DNA from: an uncultured Bryobacterales bacterium
GTDB lineage: Bacteria > Acidobacteriota > Terriglobia > Bryobacterales > UBA6623
Assembly (NCBI GenBank): GCA_958295955.1
Contig: OY282420.1
Location: 1,688,435 to 1,752,434 of the forward strand
Direction of reading: 5' to 3'
DNA length: 64,000 bases
In this document: positions 3,592 through 20,744 of the stretch, one piece after another
Layout of the letters: each line of letters opens with the position of its first letter
How positions within the stretch are numbered: position 1 is the first letter of the stretch
Notes under the pieces: model-generated
What the model saw: only the letters and a program-made list of their open reading frames with translations
Databases searched by the model: none
What the model was told of the DNA's origin: nothing
Made by a program: the position numbers and the translations under genes

Positions 3592-3609
3592 CGAGGGGTC
3601 TCCCTTCAG

Positions 3610-4656
3610 TTAGTCGATTTCGCCGGATGCCCGCAGAAGGGTCTCTTGCAAGATCAGTTCGTGATCGTAAGAATCCTTGAGCGGGCGGTCTTCCAGGATG
3701 GCTGAGGCCAACTCGTTCATGTCGCCGATATAGCGCGGCTGCGGCGGCAACTCGATCTGCTGCCAACCGGCCCGGTAGGGTCCGCGCGCTGCTCGCATAA
3801 AGACTTTCATGACGGGCGCGGGCTCCATCGGCTGGATAAAAAACGTACCGTCCGTGCCGATGACCTCGAAAGAGCGGTGGCCGCCGCTGCCGCCCATCTT
3901 GGCGGAACTGACGAGGATCGCCAGCGCCTTTTCGTATTCGAGCACGGCAAGGGTGTTGTCTTTCAGGTCGTCCGGCTCACCGGTGTCGTGGCGCAGCCAA
4001 CGGTTGACCTTGCGGGGCTTGCCCAGGAAGGCGACGACGCGGTCGACGACGTGGCCGCCGAGCTCGAACATCGAGCCGCCGGGATAACGGGCCTCGACTG
4101 CGCGCTGCTCGGGGCCGCGGTCGGAATTGATCGTGGCGCGGATCATGAAGACTTCGCCGAGCCAACCCTTGCGGTAGGCGTCGAGCGCGGCTTGAACGCC
4201 CTGGTGAAAGCGCCACATATAGCCGAGTTGTATCTTCTTGCCGCGCTTGCGGGCAAGCTCGACGAGAGCGCGGAACGGTTCGAGCTCGTTCGTAGGCGGT
4301 TTTTCCAGGTGCAGGTGCTTGCCCGCCTCGATGATTTTCGTTCCCCAGGGGATGGCGTCGCGGACTTCGCCCTCGAAAACGATGAGGTCGAGCGTAGGGT
4401 CGCCGAGCAAGGCGTCCATCGAAACCCAGCGCGGAGCGCGATCCCATTGCCAACCGGCGATGAACGCCTCGCGCGTGGCTCGGTCGGGCTCGCAGAACGA
4501 GACGACCTCGTATTTGGGGCTGGCGAACATCGCCTGCAGCTTGCCCCTGAGGTGGCCGTGCTGGACCCCGAGAATGCCCGTCCGCACCTTGCCCGCGGCG
4601 CCGGCGGCCGACGCCGGGAGCGCTGCGGATGCGGCCAGGAAAGTGCGGCGGGTCAT
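3610..4656 (-). CDS. Tat-exported Gfo/Idh/MocA family oxidoreductase (second)
   Basis: This 348-residue protein is a second Gfo/Idh/MocA oxidoreductase with a twin-arginine leader (TRRTFLAASAALPASAAG). The nucleotide-binding region is less classical than in its neighbour (RTGILGVQHGHLRGKL instead of GxGxxG), but the EKP signature is present (HLHLEKPPTNE, about residues 117-127), as is the C-terminal alpha/beta domain (GGHVVDRV). The ATG at 4656 has a strong AGGAGG site just upstream. It sits between the TIM-barrel isomerase and the other oxidoreductase in the same tightly spaced operon. I infer a periplasmic sugar-acid or uronate conversion. The degenerate glycine motif could mean altered cofactor binding or a tightly bound cofactor. 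Confidence 0.8.
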   Translation of the reverse strand: MTRRTFLAASAALPASAAGAAGKVRTGILGVQHGHLRGKLQAMFASPKYEVVSFCEPDRATREAFIAGWQWDRAPRWVSMDALLGDPTLDLIVFEGEVRDAIPWGTKIIEAGKHLHLEKPPTNELEPFRALVELARKRGKKIQLGYMWRFHQGVQAALDAYRKGWLGEVFMIRATINSDRGPEQRAVEARYPGGSMFELGGHVVDRVVAFLGKPRKVNRWLRHDTGEPDDLKDNTLAVLEYEKALAILVSSAKMGGSGGHRSFEVIGTDGTFFIQPMEPAPVMKVFMRAARGPYRAGWQQIELPPQPRYIGDMNELASAILEDRPLKDSYDHELILQETLLRASGEID

Positions 4657-4668
4657 AAGCTCCTCCTG

Positions 4669-5592
4669 TCAACGGGCGATCAACTGCGACAGATAGGCGG
4701 CGCTTTTGCGGACCGCCTCATCGACCGTCATCACGCCTTCGAAAGCCTGATGCACGGTAACGTAGCCTTCGTAGCCGATGGCGCGCAACGCGGCGAAAAC
4801 TCTCTCGAACTCGACTCCGCCGTCTTCCCATAAACCGATGTGGTCAACCCGCACCGGGCCGCGTTTCCAGGTGTTGACCGCGGTCTCGCCCGCGGGATTC
4901 AAGCGATGGTTCTGGACATATACGTTGAAAATCCAGGGGCGCACCTTTTCGATCGCTGCGCGGCCGTAGGGTTCGTCTGCAATCATCCAGTTGGCGGGTT
5001 CGTAGATGATGCCGAAATTCTCCCGGTCGATTTTTTTGAGGACATCGACTGAGCCGTCCACGGTTTCGAAAATACTGGCGTCGTGAGCTTGATGGGCGAG
5101 GCGGATGCTGCGTTCTTGCGCTTCATCGCAAGAGCGCTGCGCCCAGGCGATATCCTCCTCTTTTTTCATGCAGACGCGGATGAGATCGGCGCCGAAGACC
5201 GCGGCCAGATCGAGGTAAGGCGTGATGTTGCGCAGGCATTGCGGACCATCGTCGTTGTTCATCGGGATGGCGAAATCGCCCGTGACCATCGAGACGGCGA
5301 GTCCGGCGGCGCGGATCTTGGCGGCGTACTCGCTGACGGTTTCCGCGGGCGAGTGCGTGCCCGCGGTCGATGCGCGCATGCACAGGGCGCGGTACCCGTT
5401 GCTCTTGGCCGTGTCGATCAACTCGTCGATCGTCATCGACGATTCTTTCTTGTTGCTGAAGCTCTCGGCGACGCGCACCGACATGGCAAGCTTCATGCGC
5501 ACGGGGGAGGGTTCCGGTTCGGGTTCGGGTTGACTGCTGCATGCGCCGACTCCGGCGGCGGCGCACAGCCCGAAAAAATGCCGGCGATTCAT
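4669..5592 (-). CDS. Tat/lipoprotein sugar phosphate isomerase/epimerase-like TIM barrel
   Basis: The protein (307 residues) has the AP-endonuclease-2/xylose-isomerase-like TIM-barrel fold seen in sugar isomerases and epimerases. The N-terminus MNRRHFFGLCAAAGVGACSS combines a twin-arginine pair with a lipobox-like Cys at residue 18, so it is probably exported and lipid-anchored. Barrel features include SNGYRALCMRAST, VSMVTGDFAIP, IIYEPANW and VYVQNHR, where acidic and His side chains are placed to bind a metal. The open frame runs further upstream to 5940, but the ATG at 5592 has an AAGGAA site and starts the signal, so I chose it. It lies 35 bases after the DUF1501 gene. In this context it probably interconverts sugars for the two Gfo/Idh enzymes. 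Confidence 0.75.
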   Translation of the reverse strand: MNRRHFFGLCAAAGVGACSSQPEPEPEPSPVRMKLAMSVRVAESFSNKKESSMTIDELIDTAKSNGYRALCMRASTAGTHSPAETVSEYAAKIRAAGLAVSMVTGDFAIPMNNDDGPQCLRNITPYLDLAAVFGADLIRVCMKKEEDIAWAQRSCDEAQERSIRLAHQAHDASIFETVDGSVDVLKKIDRENFGIIYEPANWMIADEPYGRAAIEKVRPWIFNVYVQNHRLNPAGETAVNTWKRGPVRVDHIGLWEDGGVEFERVFAALRAIGYEGYVTVHQAFEGVMTVDEAVRKSAAYLSQLIAR

Positions 5593-5627: not shown

Positions 5628-7055
5628 TCAAGCCAGCATTTTCCGCACGACCTTGCCGGCGACGTCCGTCAGCCGGAAGTCGCGGCCCATGTGCCGGTAG
5701 GTGAGGCGCTTGTGGTCGAGGCCCATCGCGTGCAGCACGGTCGCCTGCAGATCGTGGACGTGAACGGGGTCTTCGACCGCCCGCAGCGCCAATTCGTCGG
5801 TTTTGCCGATGACCTGCCCGCCTTTGACGCCGCCGCCGGCCAGCCACATCGAAAACCCATTCGGGTGATGGTCGCGGCCGACCTTGTCGCCGACGTGCTT
5901 GAGTTGCCCCAGCGAGGTGCGTCCGAACTCGCCGCCCCACACGACCAGCGTCTCGTCCAGCAAGCCGCGTTCCTTAAGGTCTGCGATCAGCGCCGTGACC
6001 GGGCGGTCAGTGATGTCGCAGTTCTTCTTGAGTCCCTCGTCCAGATTCGTATGATCGTCCCAGGAAGCATGGATCAGCAACACGATGCGCACGCCTTTTT
6101 CGACGAGCCTTCGCGCCAGCAGACAGTTCGACCCGTAAGCGGCGGTCGGCTCCCGGCGGGCGCCGTATGCTTCCAGCACAGTCTCCGACTCATCGGAAAA
6201 ATCGAGCAGATCCGGCGCGGCCGCCTGCATGCGGAAAGCCAATTCGTAGCCGGCGATGCGGTCGGCGATTTGCCGGTCTCCGGTGAGTTCCAGATTTTCT
6301 TCGTTCAGCTTGCGCAGCGTGTCCAGGCTCAGGCGTTGCGCTTGCCGGGTCACTCCCTTGGGGTTCGACAAATAGAGGATCGGGTCGCCCGACTTGCGGA
6401 AAGGCACGCCGGCGTGGGTTGACGGCAGGAAACCGCTGGAAAAATTCGAGGCGCCGCCGCTCGCTCCCCGTCCCGAGCTCAATACGACGAAACCGGGCAG
6501 GTTTTGCGATTCGCTGCCCAAGCCGTAGGTCAGCCACGAGCCGATTGTCGGACGGCCGACCAGCGGGCTGCCGCTCATCAACAGCGACTGCCCCGGATGG
6601 TGGTTCACCTGATCGCTCTGCAGCGAGCGCACCAGGCAGATGTCGTCGGCGATCGTTTGCAGCCGCGGCAGATAATCGCTGATAGCCATGCCGCTTTGGC
6701 CGCACCGCGTGAAACGGCGCGGACTCGCCAATACCTTGGCCGTCGGCTTGATGAACGCGAGCTGCATTTCTTTCGTCAGCGAAGGGGGCAACGGCCGGCC
6801 GTGCCATTTTTCGAGGCCGGGCTTGGGATCGAAAAGATCCATCTGACTCGGAGCCCCGGCCATGAAAAGAAAGATCAGATTCTTTGCCTTCGGCGCGAAG
6901 TGCGGCGGGCGGGGCGCGAGTGGGTTGTTGCCGACTGCCGCCGACCGCCCTTCACGGCCCATGAGGTGCGCCAAGGCGGCCGAGCAGGCCCCGCCGGCGC
7001 AAGCATCCAGGAAATGCCGCCTCGTGCGGATGTTCCGGTACTGTTCGAAAGTCAT
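5628..7055 (-). CDS. DUF1501 domain secreted protein
   Basis: This 475-residue protein belongs to the DUF1501 family, whose fold is related to alkaline phosphatase/sulfatase-type enzymes and whose members are abundant in Planctomycetota, Verrucomicrobiota and Acidobacteriota. A twin-arginine-like leader (TRRHFLDACAGGACSAALA) begins at residue 11. Family motifs visible are FLFMAGAPSQMDLFDPKP near the N-terminus, VWGGEFGRTS and DHHPNGFSMWLAGGGVKGG near the C-terminus. It follows the PSD1 gene by 6 bases and thus forms the widespread PSD1-DUF1501 pair, seen again at 54283-58958. Its enzymatic role is not established; hydrolysis of a phosphate or sulfate ester is a plausible inference from the fold and the sulfatase two genes upstream. 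Confidence 0.88.
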   Translation of the reverse strand: MTFEQYRNIRTRRHFLDACAGGACSAALAHLMGREGRSAAVGNNPLAPRPPHFAPKAKNLIFLFMAGAPSQMDLFDPKPGLEKWHGRPLPPSLTKEMQLAFIKPTAKVLASPRRFTRCGQSGMAISDYLPRLQTIADDICLVRSLQSDQVNHHPGQSLLMSGSPLVGRPTIGSWLTYGLGSESQNLPGFVVLSSGRGASGGASNFSSGFLPSTHAGVPFRKSGDPILYLSNPKGVTRQAQRLSLDTLRKLNEENLELTGDRQIADRIAGYELAFRMQAAAPDLLDFSDESETVLEAYGARREPTAAYGSNCLLARRLVEKGVRIVLLIHASWDDHTNLDEGLKKNCDITDRPVTALIADLKERGLLDETLVVWGGEFGRTSLGQLKHVGDKVGRDHHPNGFSMWLAGGGVKGGQVIGKTDELALRAVEDPVHVHDLQATVLHAMGLDHKRLTYRHMGRDFRLTDVAGKVVRKMLA

Positions 7056-7061
7056 CTTCGG

Positions 7062-9590
7062 TCACTCACGGGTAAGAAATTCATCGAGGTTCAAAAGGAT
7101 GCGGCCGATGCCGACCCAGGCGGCGGCTTCGCCGGTGTCGATGCCGTCGAGCGCCGCCGGAAACCATGCTTTGGCCATCGCCGGGTCGGCTTCGAGCAAC
7201 TTTCGCTGGTGGACGAAATAGCCCAACATTTCTTCCCGCTCGCTCACGCGGGGCGCCCGCGCCAGGCAAAGTTTATAGGCATGGTCGAGACGTTCTGCGA
7301 ACGCGCCGGCGGGGGCTTCAGTCAAAATCCGCAGGGCCAGTCCCTGAGCGATTTCCCAGAACACCGGATCGTTCAACAGATTCAGCGCTTGCAGCGGCGT
7401 ATTCGAGCGCCCGCGCGTACAGGAGGCGACATTGCGCTCGCCAAGATCGAAGTTGGCCAGAAACGGGTACGGCGCAGTGCGCTGATAGTGGATGTAGAGG
7501 CCGCGGCGGTAGCGGTCGCCGCCCGCGCTCTCGTTCCATTTCACCGAGCCGGCATAGGCCAACTCGGCCACGCCGGCCGGCTGCGGCGGCCGGACGCTCC
7601 TGCCGCCGACGCGCGTATCCAGCAGCCCCGAGACGGCGAGCGCCGCATCCCGCAGGCTCTCGGCAGGCAGGCGCAAGCGCGTCTGGCGGGCGAGCAAACG
7701 GTTGCCCGGATCCTTGGCGGTTAACTCCGGACGGACATTCGACGACTGGCGGTACACGGCCGAGGTAACGATCAGGCGGTGAATGCGCTTCAGACTCCAA
7801 CCCGAGTCGATAAGCTCCGACGCCAGCCAATCGAGCAGGTCGGGATGGCTGGGCTTTTCGCCCTGGAAGCCGAAGTCGTTCGCCGTCGCTACCAGGCCGG
7901 AGCCGAAGTATTCCTGCCAGATGCGGTTGACCGCGACTCTTGCCGTCAAGGGATTCTCGGGCGAGGCGATCCAGCGGGCGAGATCGAGCCGCGTCGGCTG
8001 CGCTCCCGCGTAGCGCAGAGGAGGCAGCGCCGCAAGCGCTCCGGGGACAACCGGCTCGCCGGGCGCGTCCCATTCGCCGCGCTCGTGAAGGTGTGTCCGG
8101 CGGGGCTCCCGCGCTGCTTCGATGACGCGCGCGCGGCTCACGTCGGGAAAGGAATCCACGGCGGCGTTCAGTTCCTTTGCTGCGTCCCGGAACCCTGTCG
8201 CGGCATACTCTTCCTTGCCGGTCACGCGGCTGTAGTTGCGCAGAAACCACTCCGTAACAACATAGTCGTCGCGTTCGCTGCGCCGTTCGGGCGGCGTGCG
8301 CAGGATGCGTTGGCCGTTGTCGAGATAGAGGCCGATGATGTCCCAACTCGTATCCCACTGGTGCTCCACGCCGGGGTTGTCGGCGGCCCAGAGCATTTTG
8401 GCCTCCCAGGGCCGCTGCAACTCGCGCACTTTGTATTTCTTGTAGATTGCGGCAATCTTGGCGTCAAGCTCGGGCTTGGCCCGCAGATAAGGTCCGATTT
8501 CGCCCGGCAGCGGCGCGTCGATGTTGACTTCGTCCAGTTCGTTGAAAAAGGCGAAAAGGCGATAGTAATCGCTTTGCGGGATCGGATCGAATTTGTGGTC
8601 GTGGCAGCGCGCGCACTCGACCGACAGGCCCAGCCAGACCGTGGCGACCGTATTGGTGCGGTCAACCACTTCCTCGAAGCGGAACTGCTCGATAGCGACG
8701 CCGCCCTCTCGATTTTTCAGGGTATTGCGGTAGAAACCGGTAGCCACGCGCTGTTCGACGGATGCGTCGGGAAGAAGGTCTCCGGCGAGTTGCTCGAGCG
8801 TGAAGCGGTCGAACGGCATGTCGGCGTTGAGCGCGTCGATGACCCAGTGCCGGTAGCGCCAGGCATGAGGGCGCGCCAAGTCTTTCTCGTAGCCGTCCGA
8901 ATCCGCATAGCGCACCTGGTCGAGCCAGGGGGCGGCCCAGCGTTCGCCGAAGTGTTCCGATTGCAGCAGCCGGTCGACGAATTGCTCGTAGCCGGCGGCC
9001 GTTTCGGCGCCGTCCGCCGCGGGAGGGAGCCCCGTCAAATCGAGCGACGCGCGGCGCAGCAAAGTATGCGCGGGGGCTGCGGGAGACGGTTGGATGCCTT
9101 CGCGCTCCAACCGCGCCAACACGAAAGCGTCGATCGGATTGCGCGGCCAATCGTTCTGCTGCGTCTGCGGCACGGCCGGGCGGCGGTTGGGGCGGAAAGC
9201 CCAGTGCCCGCTGCGGGGCGGCGCCGCGATCTGCGCGTCGGACTCCCACTTCGCGCCCTGGTCGATCCATTCCCGGAACAGTTCGACCTGCTCGCGCGGC
9301 AGCGGCCGGCCGGGCGGCATGCGTTGCAAGCCGTCGAGGCCGTCGAGTCGTTTCATCAGCAAGCTTTGGGCGCTGCGGCCCGGCTCGATCGCCGGACCGG
9401 ACTTGCCGCCGTTCATTGCATCTTCCCGGCGGTCGAGCCGCAGACCGTTTTGCTGCAACGCGGGTCCGTGACACGCCATGCAATCCCGCGCGAGGATCGG
9501 TTCGATGTCTTCGGCGAACGACACTTCGCCTTGAGCGGCTGCCGGCGCAGCCGAAACGAGCAGACACAGCAGGATCCGGCGGAGTTTCAC
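7062..9590 (-). CDS. PSD1 protein: planctomycete-type cytochrome plus DUF1549/DUF1553
   Basis: This 842-residue secreted protein has a Sec signal (residues 1-19) and a PSCyt1 heme domain with CMACH at 37-41. DUF1549 begins around 150 (NPIDAFVLARLEREGI) and contains a second heme motif, CARCH, at 326-330. DUF1553 occupies the last third (ARWIASPENPLTARVAVNRIW). Such proteins are thought to be periplasmic heme proteins, but no activity is proven. An upstream open frame reaches 10400, but the GTG at 9590 starts the signal peptide and overlaps the stop of the sulfatase gene by four bases (GTGA), implying translational coupling. The next gene is DUF1501. The coupling to a sulfatase suggests a shared glycan-degrading role. 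Confidence 0.87.
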   Translation of the reverse strand: MKLRRILLCLLVSAAPAAAQGEVSFAEDIEPILARDCMACHGPALQQNGLRLDRREDAMNGGKSGPAIEPGRSAQSLLMKRLDGLDGLQRMPPGRPLPREQVELFREWIDQGAKWESDAQIAAPPRSGHWAFRPNRRPAVPQTQQNDWPRNPIDAFVLARLEREGIQPSPAAPAHTLLRRASLDLTGLPPAADGAETAAGYEQFVDRLLQSEHFGERWAAPWLDQVRYADSDGYEKDLARPHAWRYRHWVIDALNADMPFDRFTLEQLAGDLLPDASVEQRVATGFYRNTLKNREGGVAIEQFRFEEVVDRTNTVATVWLGLSVECARCHDHKFDPIPQSDYYRLFAFFNELDEVNIDAPLPGEIGPYLRAKPELDAKIAAIYKKYKVRELQRPWEAKMLWAADNPGVEHQWDTSWDIIGLYLDNGQRILRTPPERRSERDDYVVTEWFLRNYSRVTGKEEYAATGFRDAAKELNAAVDSFPDVSRARVIEAAREPRRTHLHERGEWDAPGEPVVPGALAALPPLRYAGAQPTRLDLARWIASPENPLTARVAVNRIWQEYFGSGLVATANDFGFQGEKPSHPDLLDWLASELIDSGWSLKRIHRLIVTSAVYRQSSNVRPELTAKDPGNRLLARQTRLRLPAESLRDAALAVSGLLDTRVGGRSVRPPQPAGVAELAYAGSVKWNESAGGDRYRRGLYIHYQRTAPYPFLANFDLGERNVASCTRGRSNTPLQALNLLNDPVFWEIAQGLALRILTEAPAGAFAERLDHAYKLCLARAPRVSEREEMLGYFVHQRKLLEADPAMAKAWFPAALDGIDTGEAAAWVGIGRILLNLDEFLTRE

Positions 9591-10996
9591 AAGCGCCTCG
9601 TTCGTTCGATCTCGTTCATGCGGCGGCGCAGCGCCCGGTCGAGCCGCTCGACGGCCTTGCGCACTTGCGGCCGCGGGTCGTCTATCAGATTGCGCCGCTC
9701 TCCGGGATCGCTGCTCAAATGATAGAGCTCGTCCATGCCCTCTCTGCTGTCGCGCACGAGCTTCCATTGCCGCGTGCGCCACATGCGTTGATCCGCCTTC
9801 TCGACGTGTTTCTGGTCGTACTCGGCGTAGAACGCCGTTCGCCACGGGATGCGTTTTTGCTCCAGCAGCGGCAGAAAGTTCTTGCCGCGGATGAGTATGT
9901 CTTCCGGCAATGCCGCGTCCGCCATGGCCAACAGCGTCGGAAACCAGTCGATATTCAGCACGACCGCATCGACCGTCAGCCCCGCGCCCAGGCGCCTCGG
10001 CCAGCGAACCGCCGCCGGAACGCGCAAAGAGTGGTCGTACATGTTGGCGCGCGGGCCTCGGTTGTCGGTCAGCAGCCAACGCCCGTTGCCTTTGTGCCAG
10101 AGCCCGTGATGGCTCAGATTGTAGCCGTGATCGCTGCTGAAGACGACGATCGTGTCCTCTGCCAAGCCCGTCTCGTCGAGAGCGTCGAGGATGCGGCCCA
10201 CGTTGCGGTCGACGCTCGCGACCGCCGCGAGGTATTCGCGCATCATGCGCTTGGCCCGCGCAACGTCGAGCTTGGGGTAGTCGCCTTGGGGCAGTATCGG
10301 GTCGAGAGCGCGGAACGGCCTCCAGTCCGCAGCGCTCAACGGCAGCCAGGTGCGGTCGCCGTCGGGCGTTCTGTTCGCGGTGTTGGCGTGCGGCGCCCAA
10401 TAGTGAACGTTGACCAGGAAAGGACGTTTCCCGTCCCGCGCCCGAATGAAGCGAACCGCCTCGTCCGTCAGAATGTCGGGCGTGTAGCCGCGAACGACTT
10501 TGCTCTCTCCGGCGGATTCGACCGTGGGATCCTTGGAAATCCCCGCTCCGTTGCGAAAGCCGTAAAACCGGTCGTAGCCGTTCCGGGTGGGCAGATATTT
10601 ATCGCGAACTCCGAGATGCCACTTGCCTATGAATAACGTCTCGTAGCCCGCCGCCTGCAATATCTTCGGCCACGTCGGAACCGCGGGGTCGAGGCCGTTG
10701 TCGGGTTCCGCGCCCGGATTGAGATAATCGGTGATGCCCAACTCGCTGCCGTAACGGCCGGTCATCAAGCCCGCCCGCGACGGGCTGCAAACCGGGGTTG
10801 TGGTGAAGGCGTTGGCAAGCGCCGCGCCTTCGCTGTAGAGGCGGTCGATGTTCGGCGTGCGCGCCTGGGCGTTGCCCAAGGCGCCGATGGTCCAGGCGGC
10901 CTGATCGTCGGCGTATAGAAAGACGATGTTCGGCCGCGGGACAGCCGTTCCTGCTATCGCCGCGCCCAGCAACACAAGACGGAGCCGGCGCTTCAC
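9587..10996 (-). CDS. secreted type I sulfatase
   Basis: This 469-residue arylsulfatase-type enzyme removes sulfate esters, probably from a polysaccharide, in the periplasm or outside the cell. A signal peptide covers residues 1-20. The metal-binding start NIVFLYADDQ is at 23-32. The modification motif CSPSR with AGLMTGR puts the formylglycine precursor at Cys70. A second metal/substrate block reads VFSSDHGYNLSHHGLWHKGN. The start is GTG at 10996, and a TACAAT box lies 15-20 bases upstream. It is the first gene of the seven-gene glycan operon and overlaps the PSD1 gene by four bases. The enzyme that would mature Cys70 to formylglycine is encoded at 46811-47824. Glycan specificity cannot be told from sequence. 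Confidence 0.92.
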   Translation of the reverse strand: MKRRLRLVLLGAAIAGTAVPRPNIVFLYADDQAAWTIGALGNAQARTPNIDRLYSEGAALANAFTTTPVCSPSRAGLMTGRYGSELGITDYLNPGAEPDNGLDPAVPTWPKILQAAGYETLFIGKWHLGVRDKYLPTRNGYDRFYGFRNGAGISKDPTVESAGESKVVRGYTPDILTDEAVRFIRARDGKRPFLVNVHYWAPHANTANRTPDGDRTWLPLSAADWRPFRALDPILPQGDYPKLDVARAKRMMREYLAAVASVDRNVGRILDALDETGLAEDTIVVFSSDHGYNLSHHGLWHKGNGRWLLTDNRGPRANMYDHSLRVPAAVRWPRRLGAGLTVDAVVLNIDWFPTLLAMADAALPEDILIRGKNFLPLLEQKRIPWRTAFYAEYDQKHVEKADQRMWRTRQWKLVRDSREGMDELYHLSSDPGERRNLIDDPRPQVRKAVERLDRALRRRMNEIERTRRL

Positions 10997-11093: not shown

Positions 11094-12980
11094 TTAAAAC
11101 TCCGCAAGCGCTTTTTTGGCGAGGGCGGCCGCTTGCGGATAACTGCCGGCGGCGGCCGCCCGGTAGTGTCGGCGCGCCGCCTCGGCATCGCCGGCCGCTT
11201 TGTAGAGTCCGGCGAGATTGTAGTGAACGGCGCCGAGTCCGGGATCGATTTCGAGCGCCTTTTCGTAGATTGCCGCCGCTTCGTCGAAGCGGCGGAGAGA
11301 CACGAGAACCGCGCCGAGGTTGCCGTAGGCGTCGGCATAGCGAGGGTCGACGCCGATAGCGTTGCGGAGTTGCCGCTCGGCCTCATCCACTTCGCCCTTG
11401 TTGGCCAGCGCGACGGCAAGATTGTTGTATGAGGGGCCGTGGCCGGGGTCCGCGCGGATGGCCTTGCGGTAGCAGGCGACGGCGTTTTCCAGATCTCCCT
11501 TGAGATTCCAGGCCACCCCCAGGTTGTGCAGGATGAAAACGGACGACGGCGATTCGGCTGCCGCTATTTGGAAGTGCTCGACGGCCCGGTCGACTTGACC
11601 GGACTGCAAATAGCGATAGCCGAGGTCGATGCGCCTGGGCAGATCGCCCGGGGCGACTTCGAGTTGCTTCCTGAGCCCGGCAATTTGCGCCGCAACTTCT
11701 TTCGTCTGGAATTTCTCGGCCAGAATTGCGCGGTCGGCGGCTGTCGCCGGCAGCGCCTGAAGCCATAGATCGCCCATCTCCTGAGAGGTCTTCCAGCCGT
11801 AGGTCACGCGCTCGGGCGGCCGGCTCGGGTTGCGCGGGTTGTCGGCGGAGTTGTCGTAATGAAAGCGCGTGAACAGCACGCTGCCTTTGGGCAGGAACAC
11901 CGGTTGCTTGTAGCGGTATTCGTCCTGCCAGTCGAAGCTCCAATCGTCGATGCGCAACAGCGGTTGCCGCGACCCGCCGGGCAACTCGGCCCAGGCCGCG
12001 ACCGACTTGCCGAGATAATGGGCGTGGGCGTACACGTTCAGCACCTCGACATCGACGGGCAGCACGAAAGAGTCCTCCGTCCGATAGTTTTCGTCGCCGG
12101 CCGGGATGTCGATCGTGTTTTTTCCCAGCCTCAGAATGAAAGGCTTGCGGGACGGCGCGCGGTCGGTGAAATAGAGTCCCAGCGCCGCCCGGATCGTTTC
12201 CGGCTTGCCGGTCGGAACCATGTGCAGCTCGATCACCAGGTCCGTCCCGGGCTCCAACGTCCAGGCCATGTCCGGCGAACGGAGAACCGGTTGTTTGCCC
12301 GGCGTCCAACCGATCCAGTGCCCTTCGGGATCGAACACGGCGTCAAGCGCCATGCCGCCGGCGAACCCCGCTCCGTCGGTTAACGCATCTTGCGCCCGCG
12401 AGCGCCCGGAGCGGTCGAGCAGCATTCGCGCGTGATGCGTCAGGCTGGCGTTGCCGGGCCGGAATTCGAATCCGCGCACGAAACGGCGCTTGGCGACCGG
12501 GATGGGGATCACGAAGTTGTGGAAAATGTCGGGGCCGTCGGCGGGCACGGGAAACGCTTCGGGCATGGCGACGATGAGGTCGGGCGGGCCGAGCCGCCAG
12601 CCCGCGGTCCAGACCGGCTGCGGCGGCAGGTCGGCCGGGTCGCCTGCGGGCAGGTCGCCGGCGAGCCAGGCGAGAAGGGTCCGGCGCTGCGCGGGCGTCA
12701 AGCTGCGGTCGCCGGCGAATTCGCCGTGTCCCGCCGCCGGCGGCCAGGGCGGCATATAGCCGCTGCGCACAACGGCCTGGATGGACTTCGCCCGCTTGGC
12801 GACGTCCCCATAGCTCAGCAACGGGAACGGGCCGGCCTCGCCGGGGCGGTGGCAGCCGGCGCAGCGATTCCAGACGATGGGCGCGATGTCTCGGTTGAAC
12901 GTCGGCGCGGCGGCGGCCGGCGGCGCGGCAAGAGCCAAGGCTGCAAGCGGAAAGCCGGCGCAAAGGCCCTTCACGGCCAT
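11094..12980 (-). CDS. cytochrome c / PHM-like copper monooxygenase / TPR fusion
   Basis: This secreted protein (628 residues from the ATG at 12980) joins three modules. After a signal peptide (1-25) comes a heme-binding domain with CAGCH at 40-44. The middle, about 150-415, resembles the copper type II ascorbate-dependent monooxygenases (PHM/DBH). It shows a His-His pair at 182-183, His253, HAH at 319-321 and SQEM with Met402, in the order of the CuA ligands (HHM, H) and CuB ligands (HxH, EM) of PHM. Residues 430-620 hold four to five TPR repeats. A TTG at 13061 or ATG at 13040 would add up to 27 residues before the signal; I prefer 12980, where the signal begins. It follows a PSD1 gene closely. 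I infer oxidation of an extracytoplasmic substrate; the substrate is unknown. Confidence 0.8.
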   Translation of the reverse strand: MAVKGLCAGFPLAALALAAPPAAAAPTFNRDIAPIVWNRCAGCHRPGEAGPFPLLSYGDVAKRAKSIQAVVRSGYMPPWPPAAGHGEFAGDRSLTPAQRRTLLAWLAGDLPAGDPADLPPQPVWTAGWRLGPPDLIVAMPEAFPVPADGPDIFHNFVIPIPVAKRRFVRGFEFRPGNASLTHHARMLLDRSGRSRAQDALTDGAGFAGGMALDAVFDPEGHWIGWTPGKQPVLRSPDMAWTLEPGTDLVIELHMVPTGKPETIRAALGLYFTDRAPSRKPFILRLGKNTIDIPAGDENYRTEDSFVLPVDVEVLNVYAHAHYLGKSVAAWAELPGGSRQPLLRIDDWSFDWQDEYRYKQPVFLPKGSVLFTRFHYDNSADNPRNPSRPPERVTYGWKTSQEMGDLWLQALPATAADRAILAEKFQTKEVAAQIAGLRKQLEVAPGDLPRRIDLGYRYLQSGQVDRAVEHFQIAAAESPSSVFILHNLGVAWNLKGDLENAVACYRKAIRADPGHGPSYNNLAVALANKGEVDEAERQLRNAIGVDPRYADAYGNLGAVLVSLRRFDEAAAIYEKALEIDPGLGAVHYNLAGLYKAAGDAEAARRHYRAAAAGSYPQAAALAKKALAEF

Positions 12981-13071
12981 AATCCCAAGCAAGGCCCGAG
13001 CGCCAAGTCCATCGGCGGATTTGCGAGGCGGCAGCGGCATGGATAGCGGGGCGAAGGGCAATTCCGGGGGA

Positions 13072-15549
13072 CTACTCCCGAGTCATGAATTCGTCCAGAT
13101 TGAGGACGGCGCGGCTGAGCCGCGCCCACGCTTCGCGGTCGGAGCGGTTGCGCATGCGCTCCCAGAAAGTTTGCGCGCGGTCGCGCTCGGCAGGGCTTGG
13201 GGCGCGGCCGAGGGCGAGCCGCATCAGGCGGCTATAACGTTCGCCGAACGATTCCCCCGCTGCGGTCGTCACGCGGTGCGCCAGGGCTTCGGCCGCTTCG
13301 ACAAAAACTTCGTCGTTGAGCAGATTCAGCGCCTGGAGCGGCGTATTGGAGCGTTCGCGGCGGGAAACGCTGACCAAGGTCGAAGGCGCATCGAAGTTGA
13401 CCAGCATGGGGTAGGGCGAAGTGCGCCGGAAGAAAACGTACAAGCCGCGGCGGTAGCGTTCGGGACCCCGCTCGGCGTTCCAGGTTTTCTTGGCGTAGCT
13501 CAACTCGGAGATGCCGGCAGGTTGCGGAGGAAAGACGCTTTTGCCGCCGATCTTGGGGTAGAGCAGGCCGCTGACCGCCAAGGCGTTGTCGCGGAGCAAC
13601 TCGGCGGGGAGCCGCAGGCGGTTTTGCCGCGCCAGCCAGGCGTTGCGCGGGTCGCGTTCGTCGAGTTCGGGGCGCGCGCGCGACGATTGGCGGTACGTTG
13701 CGGAGGTGACGATCAGCCGGATCATTGCCTTGCGGCTCCAATCCAGGCGCACGAATTCCGTTGCCAACCAATCCAGCAGCGCGGGGTGGGAGGGCGGCTC
13801 GCCTTGCGCGCCGAAATTCTCGGCGGTTGAGACGAGGCCGCGCCCGAAGAGCTCTTGCCAAATGCGGTTGACCGCGACGCGGGCGGTGAGCGGGTTGCGC
13901 TCCGAGGCGATCCATTCGGCGAAGCGCAGCCGGGCGGGTTTCGATGAGTTGCCGATTTGCGGCAGAACCGCCGGCGCCGCCGGGCCGACTTCCAGGCCCG
14001 GAGCGCGGTAGTCGCCGCGCAGGGCGATATGCGTCGGGACGGGTTCGTTGCGCTCGACCATGGCGTAGGCGAGGGCGCGCTCGGGCAGGGCGGCAACGAG
14101 CTCGGCGAGCGCCTTGCGGGTTTTCTCGATGCGGTTTTTGACGGCCTCGTCTTTTTGGAAGTCCGGACCGCCGCCGCGCAGGAACCAATCCGTGACCTTG
14201 TCGCGCTCGATTGCAGTGAGCGCGTCCGGCGGCGCGCGCATCAGCCAGTCGGCGCGGTCGTTGGCGGCCCGCCATTCGGTGACGGAGTGGTCCCAGTCGG
14301 TGCGGGCGCCCGGATTGTCCATCGCTTCGATGATCCGCGTTCGCCACTCGGCCTGAAGCGCCGGGATGCCGTTCTCTGCGAGGAGGCGTTCCCGTTCGGC
14401 GCGGTAGGCGGGGTAAGCGCGCAGGTAGGGACCGAGCTCGCCCGGCAGGGGCGCCTCGATGTCGCGTTCCACCGAGTTGTTGAAGAAGGCGAAAAGCTCG
14501 TAGAACTCTTTCTGTGAAATCGGATCGTATTTGTGATCGTGGCATTGGGCGCAGCCGACGGTCAGCCCCAGCCAGGCGTTCGCCGCGGCGCTAACGCGGT
14601 CGATGGTTTCCTCGAAACGCTTTTCGGCATTGGGCACTCCGGCCTCGCGGTTTTTGATGCCGTTGCGCAGAAAGCCGGTGGCGACGCGCTGCTCGACGGA
14701 GGCGCCCGGCAGCAGGTCGCCCGCGAGTTGTTCGATGCTGAAGCGGTCGAAGGGCATGTCGCGGTTGATCGCTTCGATGACCCATTGCCGCCAGCGCCAG
14801 GCATGAGGGCGGTGGGGGTCGCGTTCGTAGCCGTCGCTGTCGGCATAGCGCGCGAGGTCGAGCCAGGGGAGCGCCCAGCGTTCGCCGAAATGCGGGGAGT
14901 CGAGCAACCGTTCGACCGTTTTCTCGTAGATTTGCGGGTCGCTGCCATGCACGTACGCGCCGCTCTGCTGCGGGTTCGGCGGCAGCCCGATGAGGTCGAA
15001 ATACAGGCGGCGAACGAGCGTATGCCTGTCGGCTTCGGGCGAGGGTTCGACGCCTTCGGCCTCGAGCTTGGCTTGAATGAAGCGGTCGATCGGGTTGCGC
15101 GGGGACGTCCGGCCGGCGAGCGCCGGGAGTTGGGGGCGCTCGGGACGGCGGAATGCCCAGTGGGTTCGCGCTGAGCCGGCGGCCGCGGATTTGCGGGGGG
15201 CGGCGGGCCAAGCGGCGCCCGAGGCGATCCACTCGCGCAGAACGGCGATCTCGCCCGGGGCCAGCGGGGCGCCCTCCGGCGGCATTCTGAAACCCGGCTT
15301 GCCGGCGGCGACGCGCGCGATGAGTTGCGAGGCGTCCGGATCGCCCGGCGCGATCACGGGCCCCGCATAGCCGCCCTTGAGCGCCGCCGCGCGGTCGTCG
15401 AGGCGCAGGCCGTTCATTTGCTGCGCCGAGCCATGGCAGGCGTAACAGCGGGCGTGGAAAATCGGCTCGATGTCGCGGAAAAAATCGACGGCCGGATAAG
15501 CGGGGAACGCCGCCAACAGCCCGCAACCGGCGAGCAGCCAGGGTCTCAT
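13072..15549 (-). CDS. PSD1 protein: planctomycete-type cytochrome plus DUF1549/DUF1553 (second)
   Basis: This 825-residue protein has the same architecture as the one at 7062-9590: a signal peptide (residues 1-20), CYACH at 35-39, a DUF1549 region with a second heme motif (CAQCH) and a C-terminal DUF1553 (AEWIASERNPLTARVAVNRIW). The open frame extends upstream to 15795, but the ATG at 15549 starts the signal, and the TATAAT at 15556-15561 lies just six bases before it, so the mRNA is probably leaderless. Its first ten codons and promoter are duplicated at 17250-17292. It is not next to a DUF1501 gene; instead the copper-monooxygenase fusion follows on the same strand with a small gap. Function beyond a secreted heme protein is unknown. 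Confidence 0.87.
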   Translation of the reverse strand: MRPWLLAGCGLLAAFPAYPAVDFFRDIEPIFHARCYACHGSAQQMNGLRLDDRAAALKGGYAGPVIAPGDPDASQLIARVAAGKPGFRMPPEGAPLAPGEIAVLREWIASGAAWPAAPRKSAAAGSARTHWAFRRPERPQLPALAGRTSPRNPIDRFIQAKLEAEGVEPSPEADRHTLVRRLYFDLIGLPPNPQQSGAYVHGSDPQIYEKTVERLLDSPHFGERWALPWLDLARYADSDGYERDPHRPHAWRWRQWVIEAINRDMPFDRFSIEQLAGDLLPGASVEQRVATGFLRNGIKNREAGVPNAEKRFEETIDRVSAAANAWLGLTVGCAQCHDHKYDPISQKEFYELFAFFNNSVERDIEAPLPGELGPYLRAYPAYRAERERLLAENGIPALQAEWRTRIIEAMDNPGARTDWDHSVTEWRAANDRADWLMRAPPDALTAIERDKVTDWFLRGGGPDFQKDEAVKNRIEKTRKALAELVAALPERALAYAMVERNEPVPTHIALRGDYRAPGLEVGPAAPAVLPQIGNSSKPARLRFAEWIASERNPLTARVAVNRIWQELFGRGLVSTAENFGAQGEPPSHPALLDWLATEFVRLDWSRKAMIRLIVTSATYRQSSRARPELDERDPRNAWLARQNRLRLPAELLRDNALAVSGLLYPKIGGKSVFPPQPAGISELSYAKKTWNAERGPERYRRGLYVFFRRTSPYPMLVNFDAPSTLVSVSRRERSNTPLQALNLLNDEVFVEAAEALAHRVTTAAGESFGERYSRLMRLALGRAPSPAERDRAQTFWERMRNRSDREAWARLSRAVLNLDEFMTRE

Positions 15550-15555
15550 GCCGCC

Positions 15556-15561
15556 ATTATA
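15556..15561 (-). promoter_or_regulatory. -10 box of PSD1 gene, leaderless start
   Basis: A perfect TATAAT on the minus strand is separated from the ATG at 15549 by six bases, so transcription should start at or next to the A of the start codon. No good -35 hexamer is seen. There is no Shine-Dalgarno site. Confidence 0.55.
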
Positions 15562-15649
15562 GACAGCGGCCCGCCAAGGAAGGGCCGATGAGCCGGCGGA
15601 CATTTGCGGATTTGGAGTGCGCGGCCAACAAGCGCCGCGCGAGGCGGGG

Positions 15650-15655
15650 TAAAAT
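15650..15655 (+). promoter_or_regulatory. -10 box of Sel1 gene A
   Basis: TAAAAT on the plus strand lies 11 bases before the ATG at 15667, giving a leader of about five bases. The same box is kept in the duplicated copy at 17380-17385. Confidence 0.4.
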
Positions 15656-15666
15656 GGCAATCCGCG

Positions 15667-17214
15667 ATGCAACACAAGGTGACTTTTCTGAACGCTGCGG
15701 TTCTGACCCTGGTATTCGTTGCCGCGGCGACGGCTCAATCGGCAGCGATCGAACAACTGCGTTTGGACGCGCAACAGGGAGACGCCGACGCTCAACTCAG
15801 CCTTGGAGGGATGTATTTCTGGGGCGAAGACGTCCCCCAGGACTACCGGGAAGCGTTGAAATGGTGCCGTCTAGCTGCAGATCAGGGACACGCCACGGCC
15901 CAATTCAACCTGGGGGTGATGTATGACAAGGGCGAAGGCGTTCCCCAGGACTACCGGGAAGCGTTGAAGTGGTATCGCCTAGCCGCAGATCAGGGACACG
16001 CCAAGGCCCAATTCAACCTGGGGCTGATGTATGACAATGGCGAAGGCGTCCCCCAGGACTACCGGGAAGCGGCCAAGTGGTACCGTCTAGCCGCAGATCA
16101 GGGAAACGCCACCGCTCAGTCCAACCTGGGGCTGATGTATGCCAACGGCGAAGGCGTTCCCCAGGACTACCGGGAAGCGTTGAAGTGGTACCGTCTAGCC
16201 GCAGATCAGGGACACGCCGACGCTCAAGTCAACCTTGGAGTGAGGTATGCCAGGGGCGAAGGCGTCCCCCAGGACTACCGGGAAGCGGCCAAGTGGTACC
16301 GTCTAGCTGCAGATCAGGGAGACTCCGGCGCCCAAAATTCCCTTGGGGTGATGTATGACACTGGCCGAGGCGTTCCCCAGGACTACCGGGAAGCGGTCAA
16401 ATGGTACCGCCTAGCCGCAGATCAGGGACACGCCAGCGCTCAACGCAACCTTGGAGTGATGTATTACGAGGGCGAAGGCGTCCCCCAGGACTACCGGGAA
16501 GCGGCCAAGTGGTTCCGTCTAGCCGCAGATCAGGGAGACTCCAGCGCCCAAAATTCCCTTGGGGTGATGTATGACACTGGCCGAGGCGTTCCCCAGGACT
16601 ACCGGGAAGCGGCCAAGTGGTTCCGCCTAGCCGCAGATCAGGGAACCGCTGCGGCCCAATTCAACCTGGGGATGATGTATGACGAGGGCCAAGGCGTCCC
16701 CCAAGACTACCGGGAAGCGCTGAAATGGTACCGTCTAGCCGCAGGTCAGGGAAACGCCAAGGCCCAATTCAACCTGGGGATGATGTATGACGAGGGCCAA
16801 GGCGTCCCCCAAGACTACCGGGAAGCGGCCAAGTGGTACCGTCTAGCCGCAGATCAGGGACACGCCACGGCCCAATTCAACCTGGGGGTGATGTATGGCA
16901 AGGGCGAAGGCGTTCCCCAGGACTACCGGGAAGCGTTGAAATGGTACCGTCTAGCCGCAGGTCAGGGACACGCCAAGGCCCAATTCAACCTGGGGCTGAT
17001 GTATGACAAGGGCCTAGGCGTTCCCCAGGACTACGTTCAAGCTCACAAGTGGGTTAACTTGGCGGCATCACAGGCTGCAGGGGAAAAAGCGAAAGACTAT
17101 CGCTCGACGAGAGACACAGTGGCGGAGAAGATGGCCCCTTCGCAAATCGCCGAAGCCCAGCAGTTGGCGCGGGAATGGCGCCCGAAGACTTGGGAGCAAC
17201 TGAAAATCAAATAG
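15667..17214 (+). CDS. secreted Sel1-repeat protein A (12 repeats)
   Basis: This 515-residue protein is made almost wholly of Sel1-like repeats, which form a TPR-like alpha-solenoid that binds partner proteins. A signal peptide covers residues 1-23 (ending AAATAQS). Twelve 36-residue repeats follow (residues 30-462; consensus AQFNLGVMYDKGEGVPQDYREALKWYRLAADQG). A 53-residue C-terminal cap ends in ARDTVAEKM-like helices and REWRPKTWEQLK. The frame is open from 15604, but the ATG at 15667 starts the signal and has a TAAAAT box just before it. It is divergent from the PSD1 gene and is the shorter copy of a tandem pair. Secreted Sel1 proteins often act in envelope or host-interaction roles, but nothing here shows which. 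Confidence 0.9.
   Translation: MQHKVTFLNAAVLTLVFVAAATAQSAAIEQLRLDAQQGDADAQLSLGGMYFWGEDVPQDYREALKWCRLAADQGHATAQFNLGVMYDKGEGVPQDYREALKWYRLAADQGHAKAQFNLGLMYDNGEGVPQDYREAAKWYRLAADQGNATAQSNLGLMYANGEGVPQDYREALKWYRLAADQGHADAQVNLGVRYARGEGVPQDYREAAKWYRLAADQGDSGAQNSLGVMYDTGRGVPQDYREAVKWYRLAADQGHASAQRNLGVMYYEGEGVPQDYREAAKWFRLAADQGDSSAQNSLGVMYDTGRGVPQDYREAAKWFRLAADQGTAAAQFNLGMMYDEGQGVPQDYREALKWYRLAAGQGNAKAQFNLGMMYDEGQGVPQDYREAAKWYRLAADQGHATAQFNLGVMYGKGEGVPQDYREALKWYRLAAGQGHAKAQFNLGLMYDKGLGVPQDYVQAHKWVNLAASQAAGEKAKDYRSTRDTVAEKMAPSQIAEAQQLAREWRPKTWEQLKIK
15754..17052 (+). repeat. 108-bp tandem repeat array, 12 units
   Basis: Twelve in-frame units of 108 bp encode the Sel1 repeats of protein A (the first unit has one extra codon). 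Units differ at scattered positions, mostly in the residues before AQ and around MYxxG. The string CCGTCTAGC recurs in nearly every unit, including its stop-like TAG out of frame. Confidence 0.92.
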
Positions 17215-17396: not shown

Positions 17397-20300
17397 ATGC
17401 AAAACAAGGCGACTCTTCTGAATGCTGCGGTTCTGGTCCTGGCATTCGTTGCCGCACTCGTAGTTTTCCATGCGCGCGGCGAGCTCGTCGTGAATGCTGC
17501 GATTCTGGTCCTGGCATCCGTTGCCGCGGCGACGGCTCAATCGGCAGCGATCAAACAACTGCGTTTGGATGCGCAACAGGGAGACGCCGCGGCCCAATCT
17601 TTACTTGGATGGGTGTATGAAAATGGCCAAGGCGTTCCCCAGGACGACCGGGAAGCGGCCAAGTGGTATCGCCTAGCCGCAGAGCAGGGAGACGCCGACG
17701 CTCAGTCCAACCTAGGGCTGATGTATGCCAAGGGCCAAGGCGTTCCCCAAGACTACCGGGAAGCGTTGAAGTGGTTCCGTCTAGCCGCAGATCAGGGACA
17801 CGCCGTGGCCCAATTCAACCTTGGGTTGATGTATGCCAATGGCAAAGACGTTCCCCAGGACTACCGGGAAGCGGCCAAGTGGTTCCGTCTAGCCGCAGAG
17901 CAGGGAGACGCCGACGCCCAATCCAACCTTGGATGGATGTATCGCTGGGGCAAAGGCGTTCCCCAGGACGACCGGGAAGCGGCCAAGTGGTATCGCCTAG
18001 CCGCAGAGCAGGGAAACGCCGCCGCTCAATTCAACCTGGGGCTGATGTATGCCAAGGGCCAAGGCGTCCCCCGGGACGACCGGGAAGCGGCCAAGTGGTA
18101 CCGTCTAGCTGCAGAGCAGGGATACGCCACGGCCCAATTCAGCTTGGGGGTGATGTATCACGAGGGCGAAGGCGTTCCCCAGGACTACCAGGAAGCGCTG
18201 AAGTGGTATCGTCTAGCCGCAGAGCAGGGAAACGCCGCCGCTCAGTCCAACCTAGGGCTGATGTATGCCAAGGGCCAAGGCGTTCCCCAAGACGACCGGG
18301 AAGCGTTGAAGTGGTACCGTCTAGCCGCAGAGCAGGGAAACGCCGCCGCTCAAGTCAACCTGGGGCTGATGTATGCCAAGGGCCAAGGCGTTCCCAAAGA
18401 CGACCGGGAAGCGTTGAAGTGGTTCCGTCTAGCCGCAGAACAGGGAAACGCCGACGCTCAGTCCAACCTTGGGCTGATGTATTTCCAGGGCCAAGGCGTT
18501 CCCCAAGACGACCGGGAAGCGTTGAAGTGGTTCCGTCTAGCCGCAGAGCAGGGAAACGCCGCCGCTCAAGTCAACCTGGGGCTGATGTATGCCAAGGGCC
18601 AAGGCGTTCCCAAAGACGACCGGGAAGCGTTGAAGTGGTTCCGTCTAGCCGCAGAACAGGGAAACGCCGACGCTCAGTCCAACCTTGGGCTGATGTATTT
18701 CCAGGGCCAAGGCGTTCCCCAAGACGACCGGGAAGCGTTGAAATGGTACCGTCTAGCTGCAGATCAGGGACACGCCGAAGCTCAATTCAACCTAGGGGTG
18801 ATGTATGACAAGGGCCAAGGCGTTCCCCAAGACGACCGGGAAGCGTTGAAATGGTACCGTCTAGCCGCAGATCAGGGAACCGCCAAGGCCCAATTCAACC
18901 TAGGGGTGATGTATGACAAGGGCCAAGGCGTTCCCCAAGACGACCGGGAAGCGTTGAAGTGGTTCCGTCTAGCCGCAGAACAGGGATACGCCGGCGCCCA
19001 ATCCAACCTGGGGGTTATGTATCACAAGGGCCAAGGCGTCCCCCAGGACTACCGGGAAGCGTTGAAATGGTACCGTCTAGCTGCAGAGCAGGGATACGCC
19101 GGCGCTCAATCCAACCTGGAGGTTATGTATGACAAGGGCGAAGGCGTTCCTCAGAACGACCGGGAAGCGCTGAAGTGGTATCGCCTAGCCGCAGATCAAG
19201 GAGACGCCGACGCCCAATTCAGCCTTGGAGGGATGTATCTCCGGGGCCAAGGCGTTCCCCAGGACTACCGGGAAGCGGCCAAGTGGTACCGTCTAGCCGC
19301 AGAGCAGGGAAACGCCGCCGCTCAAGTCAACCTGGGGCTGATGTATGCCAAGGGCCAAGGCGTCCCCCGGGACGACCGGGAAGCGGCCAAGTGGTACCGT
19401 CTAGCTGCAGAGCAGGGATACGCCACGGCCCAATTCAACCTGGGGGTGATGTATCACGAGGGCGAAGGCGTTCCCCAGGACTACCAGGAAGCGCTGAAGT
19501 GGTATCGTCTAGCCGCAGAGCAGGGAAACGCCGCCGCTCAGTCCAACCTAGGGCTGATGTATGCCAAGGGCCAAGGCGTTCCCCAAGACGACCGGGAAGC
19601 GTTGAAGTGGTTCCGTCTAGCCGCAGAGCAGGGAAACGCCGAAGCTCAATTCAACCTGGGGCTGATGTATGACAAGGGCCAAGGCGTTCCCCAAGACGAC
19701 CGGGAAGCGTTGAAGTGGTACCGTCTAGCCGCAGAGCAGGGAAACGCCGAAGCTCAATTCAACCTGGGGGTGATGTATGACAAGGGCCAAGTCGTTCCCC
19801 AAGACGACCGGGAAGCGTTGAAATGGTACCGTCTAGCCGCAGAGCAGGGAAACGCCGAAGCTCAATTCAACCTGGGGGTGATGTATGCCAATGGCAAAGG
19901 CGTTCCCCGGGACGACCGGGAAGCAGCCAAGTGGTTCCGTCTAGCCGCAGATCAGGGACACGCCACGGCCCAATCCAACCTAGGGGTTATGTATCACAAG
20001 GGCCAAGGCGTCCCCCAGGACTACCGGGAAGCGTTGAAATGGTACCGTCTAGCCGCAGATCAGGGATACGCCGCCGCCCAACGCAACCTTGGAGGGATGT
20101 ATGACAAGGGCCGCGGCGTTTCCCAGGACGACCGGGAAGCGCTGAAGTGGTTCCGTCTAGCCGCAGATCAGGGAGACGCCACGGCCCAATTCAACCTGGG
20201 GGTGATGTATGCCAATGGCCGAGGCGTCCCCCGGGACAACCGGGAAGCGCTGAAGTGGTTCCGTCTAGCCGCAGAGCAGGGATACGCCGCGGCCCAATTC

Positions 20301-20744
20301 AACCTTGGGCTGATGTATCGCCGGGGCGAAGGCGTTCCCCAGGACTACCGGGAAGCGGCCAAGTGGTTCCGTCTAGCTGCAGATCAGGGATACGCCGACG
20401 CTCAATTCAACTTGGGGCTGATGTATTACGAGGGCCAAGGCGTTCCCCAGGACTACCAGGAAGCGGCCAAGTGGTTCCGTCTAGCCGCAGAGCAGGGATA
20501 CGCCGACGCTCAATTCAACCTTGGGGTGATGTATGCCAAGGGCGAAGGCGTTCCCCAGGACTACCAGGAAGCGGCCAAGTGGGTCAACTTGGCGACCTCG
20601 CAAGCTGCGGGGGAAACAGCGAAGCGCCATCGCTCGGCGAGAGACGCAGTGGCGCAGATAATGACCCCTTCGCAACTCGCCGAAGCCCAGCAGTTGGCGC
20701 GGGAATGGCGCCCGAAGACTTGGGCGCAACTGAAAAGCAAATAG
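17397..20744 (+). CDS. secreted Sel1-repeat protein B (28 repeats)
   Basis: This 1115-residue paralogue of protein A arose by tandem duplication and then repeat growth. The signal region is itself doubled: the block LNAAVLVLAFVAA (residues 8-20) is repeated as VNAAILVLASVAA (32-44) around a short spacer, giving a 53-residue leader before the first repeat. Twenty-eight Sel1 repeats follow (54-1062), then a 53-residue cap like that of protein A (REWRPKTWAQLKSK). Repeats 8-9 and 10-11 are practically identical at DNA level, and repeats 5-7 match 17-19, so growth occurred by unequal exchange. The protein would form a very long alpha-solenoid scaffold. It is probably exported, but the doubled leader might instead anchor it. 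No partner is evident from neighbours. Confidence 0.9.
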   Translation: MQNKATLLNAAVLVLAFVAALVVFHARGELVVNAAILVLASVAAATAQSAAIKQLRLDAQQGDAAAQSLLGWVYENGQGVPQDDREAAKWYRLAAEQGDADAQSNLGLMYAKGQGVPQDYREALKWFRLAADQGHAVAQFNLGLMYANGKDVPQDYREAAKWFRLAAEQGDADAQSNLGWMYRWGKGVPQDDREAAKWYRLAAEQGNAAAQFNLGLMYAKGQGVPRDDREAAKWYRLAAEQGYATAQFSLGVMYHEGEGVPQDYQEALKWYRLAAEQGNAAAQSNLGLMYAKGQGVPQDDREALKWYRLAAEQGNAAAQVNLGLMYAKGQGVPKDDREALKWFRLAAEQGNADAQSNLGLMYFQGQGVPQDDREALKWFRLAAEQGNAAAQVNLGLMYAKGQGVPKDDREALKWFRLAAEQGNADAQSNLGLMYFQGQGVPQDDREALKWYRLAADQGHAEAQFNLGVMYDKGQGVPQDDREALKWYRLAADQGTAKAQFNLGVMYDKGQGVPQDDREALKWFRLAAEQGYAGAQSNLGVMYHKGQGVPQDYREALKWYRLAAEQGYAGAQSNLEVMYDKGEGVPQNDREALKWYRLAADQGDADAQFSLGGMYLRGQGVPQDYREAAKWYRLAAEQGNAAAQVNLGLMYAKGQGVPRDDREAAKWYRLAAEQGYATAQFNLGVMYHEGEGVPQDYQEALKWYRLAAEQGNAAAQSNLGLMYAKGQGVPQDDREALKWFRLAAEQGNAEAQFNLGLMYDKGQGVPQDDREALKWYRLAAEQGNAEAQFNLGVMYDKGQVVPQDDREALKWYRLAAEQGNAEAQFNLGVMYANGKGVPRDDREAAKWFRLAADQGHATAQSNLGVMYHKGQGVPQDYREALKWYRLAADQGYAAAQRNLGGMYDKGRGVSQDDREALKWFRLAADQGDATAQFNLGVMYANGRGVPRDNREALKWFRLAAEQGYAAAQFNLGLMYRRGEGVPQDYREAAKWFRLAADQGYADAQFNLGLMYYEGQGVPQDYQEAAKWFRLAAEQGYADAQFNLGVMYAKGEGVPQDYQEAAKWVNLATSQAAGETAKRHRSARDAVAQIMTPSQLAEAQQLAREWRPKTWAQLKSK
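17556..20582 (+). repeat. 108-bp tandem repeat array, 28 units
   Basis: Twenty-eight in-frame 108-bp units (3027 bp) encode the repeats of protein B. Higher-order structure is visible: a two-unit block (18317-18530) is repeated directly at 18533-18746 without differences, and a three-unit block (17991-18314) recurs at 19287-19610 with few differences. Confidence 0.93.

Follow-up and report, generated by a model that had tools for sequence, protein, structure and literature searches.

A heme-fused, PHM-like copper protein of a Bryobacterales bacterium represents a widespread bacterial family

Introduction

Copper monooxygenases of the type of PHM (peptidylglycine alpha-hydroxylating monooxygenase) occur in animals and other eukaryotes, in which they use ascorbate in the formation of amidated peptide hormones and noradrenaline. 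The catalytic core of PHM contains conserved disulfides, and three of its residues, Arg240, Asn316 and Tyr318, anchor the carboxylate of the substrate. The related dopamine beta-hydroxylase (DBH) carries a DOMON domain N-terminal of its core. Lytic polysaccharide monooxygenases (LPMOs), copper enzymes of a fold unrelated to that of PHM, have mononuclear copper and receive electrons from a separate donor protein; one such donor, cellobiose dehydrogenase, carries heme. PHM is widespread in eukaryotes according to a 2022 structural survey, and belongs with PNGase F to a common Pfam clan with a double jelly-roll fold (PMC8812541). It requires ascorbate, and its CuH site is formed by His107, His108 and His172 (PMC6123673). 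The use of cellobiose dehydrogenase as LPMO reductant (PMC5987398), in which a heme-bearing protein donates single electrons to a copper monooxygenase, offers a functional parallel to the protein described here.

We analysed a gene in a 64,000-nucleotide stretch of DNA from an uncultured Bryobacterales bacterium (hereafter, the window), which encodes a protein with a cytochrome c domain, a PHM-like copper domain and a TPR tail. In our assessment it is probably a two-copper monooxygenase of the PHM/dopamine beta-monooxygenase (DBM) superfamily that is exported and draws its electrons from the attached heme instead of from ascorbate.

Results

The gene occupies 11094-12980 of the window on the minus strand, as delimited by its open reading frame and by its relatives, with an ATG at 12980, coding sequence at 11097-12980 and the stop codon at 11094-11096; the product has 628 amino acids. 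An in-frame TTG at 13061, upstream of the ATG, leaves the start slightly open, and the ATG start yields what by eye is a clean signal peptide. This putative Sec-type signal (residues 1 to ~24; 12909-12980) consists of a hydrophobic stretch and then AAAA, ahead of PTFNRD, which would place the mature N terminus at about Pro26-Thr27 rather than at a His, and the protein is predicted to be exported. An earlier note on the window had proposed that a covalently attached cytochrome c, a PHM-like copper domain and a TPR tail follow one another in this protein. That make-up is right, and the residue numbers given with it agree with the translation (C40-A-G-C43-H44, HH182-183, H253, HAH319-321 and SQEM399-402). 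The TPR array covers residues ~450-610 (11150-11633) and is readily recognised (Pfam TPR_1, E 1e-23, and others). It also dominates general searches: with the whole protein as a single sequence, the PDB returned TPR proteins only, a profile of aligned cores being needed to reach PHM, and an NCBIfam scan gave only TPR-type models, all below their cut-offs.

Residues ~26-125 (12606-12903) form a predicted mono-heme cytochrome c domain, assigned from a Pfam Cytochrome_CBB3 match of the window protein (E 1.4e-4, under the Pfam cut-off) and from its invariant heme residues. The heme-c motif CAGCH contributes C40, C43 and H44, and M76, in the motif MPPW, is the candidate sixth ligand of the heme iron. 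Both the CXXCH motif and Met76 are invariant across all 69 relatives examined (46 + 23). In the AlphaFold2 model, the cytochrome part is of low confidence (pLDDT ~30-58), and on its own it gave no significant fold match.

The middle of the protein, residues ~130-410 (11751-12593), is a PHM-like two-lobed beta domain according to Foldseek, VIA and profile searches of the PDB. A profile built from 46 family sequences had only two significant matches in the PDB, PHM (E 1e-12) and DBH (PDB code 4ZEL; E 3e-5), followed by cytochrome c (E 0.03) and hydrazine synthase (E 0.11), both on the heme part. In the alignment between profile and PDB entry, all six copper ligands of PHM fall on six ligands of the family, each of them invariant. 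His182-His183 (12432-12437) and His253 (12222-12224) align with the VHH and LQVH motifs of PHM and correspond to its CuH ligands His107/His108 and His172, while His319 and His321 of HAH (12018-12026) and Met402 of SQEM (11775-11777) align with HTH and SDEM and correspond to the CuM ligands His242/His244 and Met314. This invariance and the alignment with PHM rule out a chance pattern of His residues. As to Pfam models of the two monooxygenase lobes, proposed in the earlier note as a check, the C-domain model Cu2_monoox_C (PF03712) matches the window protein at the margin of its cut-off of 23 bits (E 4e-4 and 20.3 bits in the Pfam scan, 23.3 bits in a genome-wide search), and the N lobe went unrecognised. 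Across the family, 32 of the 46 members match PF03712 and six match PF01082 (E 0.01).

A structure was predicted with AlphaFold2 from an input of six sequences, namely the window protein and those of five other loci (mean pLDDT 67.7; mostly 70-95 over the copper domain, lower in some of its loops). Foldseek with the predicted core found PHM at E 4e-12, and VIA-align superposed it on PHM (PDB code 3MIB) with Z 20.7 over 262 residues at 3.7 Å and on DBH with Z 19.9, the next fold being of the PNGase type (Z 8.6). The two-lobed beta fold, on which the earlier assignment depended, is thus present in the model. As for LPMOs, which were covered by the general Pfam scan, it is PHM that the fold search puts on top. 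The middle domain is a true relative of the PHM/DBM copper core, with good support for both its predicted fold and its metal sites.

The window protein differs from its structurally characterised relatives in what surrounds this core. PHM (PDB codes 1PHM, 1OPM and 3MIB) has the same two-lobed beta fold and the same six ligands in the same order and at aligned positions; the identity is ~15%, the window protein has a cytochrome c domain and TPRs in addition, and no PAL was seen among the best 25 of its 31 Pfam matches. DBH shares the copper core, has an extra domain N-terminal of it and, unlike the window protein, has neither a CXXCH cytochrome nor TPRs. The conserved disulfides of the PHM core have no counterpart in most of the family, the copper domain being free of Cys in 33 of 46 sequences. 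By fold, sequence and ligands the protein is a member of the PHM/DBM superfamily; by its substrate residues (see below) it is not PHM, and it represents a variant with a fused cytochrome c.

The family was aligned as 46 cores, 29-64% identical to the window protein, whose numbering is obtained by adding 23 to the column residue. Just 22 columns are invariant, and these include C40, C43, H44, M76, H182, H183, H253, H319, H321 and M402. A further 23 sequences, taken from the phylum of the genome (G552) that holds locus L013, all likewise have these ten heme and copper residues; this second sampled group has no overlap with the sample of the host phylum. In profile searches, 88 of the 396 genomes sampled from the host phylum (E <= 1e-20) and 58 of the 149 sampled from the second group were found to encode the cytochrome-PHM core. 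Within the class, 71 of 200 genomes had a match to PF03712, a model blind to the heme, and the eight best places (L047 and L050-L056) all encode a CXXCH domain. The host genome itself (4.58 Mb in 3 contigs) has two further members, one of 460 amino acids, 44% identical over residues 8-432, and one in a 731-codon frame with ~280 residues ahead of the core. The closest relatives outside it, in Bryobacterales MAGs (L009-L012), are 57-63% identical over their length. Heme fusion is therefore the rule of the family, and the description of the protein as self-contained and new needs correction, since a large bacterial family has the cytochrome c joined to a PHM-like domain as its usual layout. Our searches of the open-licence literature turned up no experimental study of bacterial fusions between cytochrome c and PHM, an absence that is not proof. 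A search of plasmids returned a single heme-less PHM-like protein, a putative lipoprotein of Nonomuraea gerenzanensis (L119:5641-6969) with the six copper-ligand motifs and without cytochrome c, which is unannotated in the gene table of the collection.

In a tree of the 46 cores, a single branch of 31 rows (support 100/98) unites the proteins with TPR tails, the window protein among them. L105, which had been labelled as TPR-tailed from the length of its tail alone, lies outside this branch, and its tail is not TPR-like. Another locus has a single frame of 1248 amino acids (L100:5662-9408) with two complete cytochrome-PHM cores in tandem and a TPR-like stretch after each.

Proteins of the second group (L129-L137 and others) have the same core with all ten metal-binding residues; they differ from the window protein in that they combine redoxin, cytochrome c and PHM-like domains, with the redoxin at the N terminus, and most are without the long C-terminal tail. 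An N-terminal redoxin-like domain is present in 16 of the 23 proteins from this group, and in the host phylum the core gene has a free-standing redoxin-like gene beside it at L090, L093, L094, L101, L102, L103 and L117. That redoxin is fused in one group and adjacent in another argues for a working partnership. It is also consistent with an enzyme of the same class in which the heme does not feed the coppers, and the cytochrome instead carries electrons away or docks the protein to a respiratory chain, while the coppers obtain their electrons from a separate soluble donor or from the redoxin; the Nonomuraea protein indicates, moreover, that a copper core can exist without heme. We regard this arrangement as unlikely, given that every fused member examined has the heme domain and that the residues of this domain are conserved as strictly as those that bind copper, a pattern suggestive of a shared redox role.

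Three of the redoxin-like partners (L090:9334-9942, L101:6903-7598 and L103:8853-9389) have, rather than CXXC, a CPIS motif with one Cys and a late VGC motif. The copper protein may have a part in handling copper or thiols. Partners that could handle metal or thiols, together with the absence of the substrate-anchoring residues of PHM, would suit a two-copper protein without monooxygenase activity that, for example, oxidises, stores or senses copper with its redoxin partner. We consider this improbable: three His in one lobe and two His and a Met in the other are the catalytic arrangement of PHM and DBM, and all six are fixed.

A second recurrent neighbour is a TonB-dependent receptor. Of 44 core genes, 20 have such a receptor-like gene no more than 5 kb away, against ~10% expected from the 31-54 such receptors per genome (binomial p 4e-9, for loci that are non-independent, L009-L012 being close kin and some loci holding several cores). 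In L009 the receptor-like gene encodes a CarboxypepD_reg domain plus a beta-barrel. A receptor gene stands directly upstream of the copper gene at L009:4850-7894, L010:4808-7843 and L012:4746-7832, and these receptors are mutually 87-90% identical, compared with 66-70% for the copper proteins. The host genome encodes an 82% identical receptor relative at G000:C1:3524845-3527817, unlinked to the copper gene, and one redoxin-like gene, likewise away from it.

In the window, the copper gene is part of a co-directional run on the minus strand. Upstream, 92 bases before the ATG, is a gene for a PSCyt1-PSCyt2-PSD1 protein (13072-15795), and downstream, 98 bases past the stop codon, a sulfatase gene (9587-10996), followed by genes for a second PSCyt1-PSCyt2-PSD1 protein and a DUF1501 protein (5628-9593) and for an AP_endonuc_2 (xylose-isomerase-like) TIM barrel and two Gfo/Idh/MocA oxidoreductases (2455-5535). 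The PSCyt1-PSCyt2-PSD1 (DUF1549/DUF1553) proteins resemble the window protein in having a small cytochrome c domain; unlike it, they have no PHM-like domain among their Pfam matches. Elsewhere in the window, another pair of genes on the minus strand resembles those for PSD1 and DUF1501 proteins (55752-58958 and 54283-55749), and two tandem genes on the plus strand (15604-17214 and 17397-20744) encode proteins of 536 and 1115 amino acids that by eye are nearly all Sel1-like repeats.

In Verrucomicrobia, PSCyt and sulfatase genes are often neighbours, and a role in carbohydrate metabolism has been suggested for them, their function being unknown (PMC5615132). This, and the co-directional run itself, several members of which have relatives near the copper gene in L009 (both oxidoreductases and the DUF1501, PSD1 and TIM-barrel proteins), would fit a glycan-active hydroxylase. 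Such an enzyme would hydroxylate a sugar, possibly sulfated, that the sulfatase, the Gfo/Idh/MocA oxidoreductases and the isomerase would then process. It is a narrower form of the dicopper monooxygenase favoured here and does not compete with it. We nonetheless judge it improbable, since among the other loci inspected L009 alone has several of these neighbours together, and no carbohydrate-binding domain is present among the best 25 of the 31 Pfam matches of the protein. L009 also lacks the sulfatase, and a conserved glycan operon was rejected on this pattern of neighbours. The glycan setting in which the earlier note had placed the gene is weak, although genes for a sulfatase, sugar dehydrogenases and a sugar isomerase do neighbour it.

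PHM is the closest solved relative, and an enzyme that hydroxylates peptidyl-glycine to make amidated peptides is nevertheless very improbable, because the equivalents of Arg240, Asn316 and Tyr318 are Tyr317, Asp404 and Trp406, unconserved in the family (the residues observed at the first position do not include Arg, and of 46 sequences only two each have Asn and Tyr at the others), and because no PAL-type domain is found among the best 25 of the protein's 31 Pfam matches; peptide amidation as such was rejected on the anchoring residues.

Discussion

The reading that we favour, an exported dicopper monooxygenase with its own heme donor, can be set out as a sequence of steps. His182, His183 and His253 would form CuH and His319, His321 and Met402 CuM, in two beta-sandwich lobes, and the full complement would be two coppers and one heme c. 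CuM would bind and activate O2 beside the substrate, and a C-H bond would be hydroxylated. The cytochrome c would take single electrons from a periplasmic or respiratory donor and pass them to CuH in place of ascorbate, and the TPR tail may dock partner proteins. That a heme rather than ascorbate is the donor is plausible and agrees with the invariance of the fusion. The hydroxylation itself is read from the copper sites, since the PHM substrate-anchoring residues that were checked are not kept; judging by those positions, the substrate is probably not simply peptidyl-glycine. Against this mechanism stand the low confidence of the modelled cytochrome part, which by itself matched no fold, and the fact that, in the host, both the relative of the TonB-dependent receptor and the redoxin-like gene are unlinked to the copper gene.

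PHM-type copper sites are thus common in bacteria, and there they come with a built-in heme; this cytochrome c-fused variant occurs widely and, to judge from the open papers searched, has gone unstudied. More tentatively, with the odds slightly against us, we suggest that the family constitutes a large class of bacterial enzymes that hydroxylate C-H bonds with two coppers and receive both electrons straight from respiration through the fused cytochrome c, with no need for ascorbate. If the heme does feed the coppers, these proteins would provide an ascorbate-free and spectroscopically readable version of the reaction, in which the long-debated electron path from CuH to CuM of PHM and DBM would be directly observable through the heme spectrum. 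It would also point to an unknown extracytoplasmic oxidative step in these bacteria.
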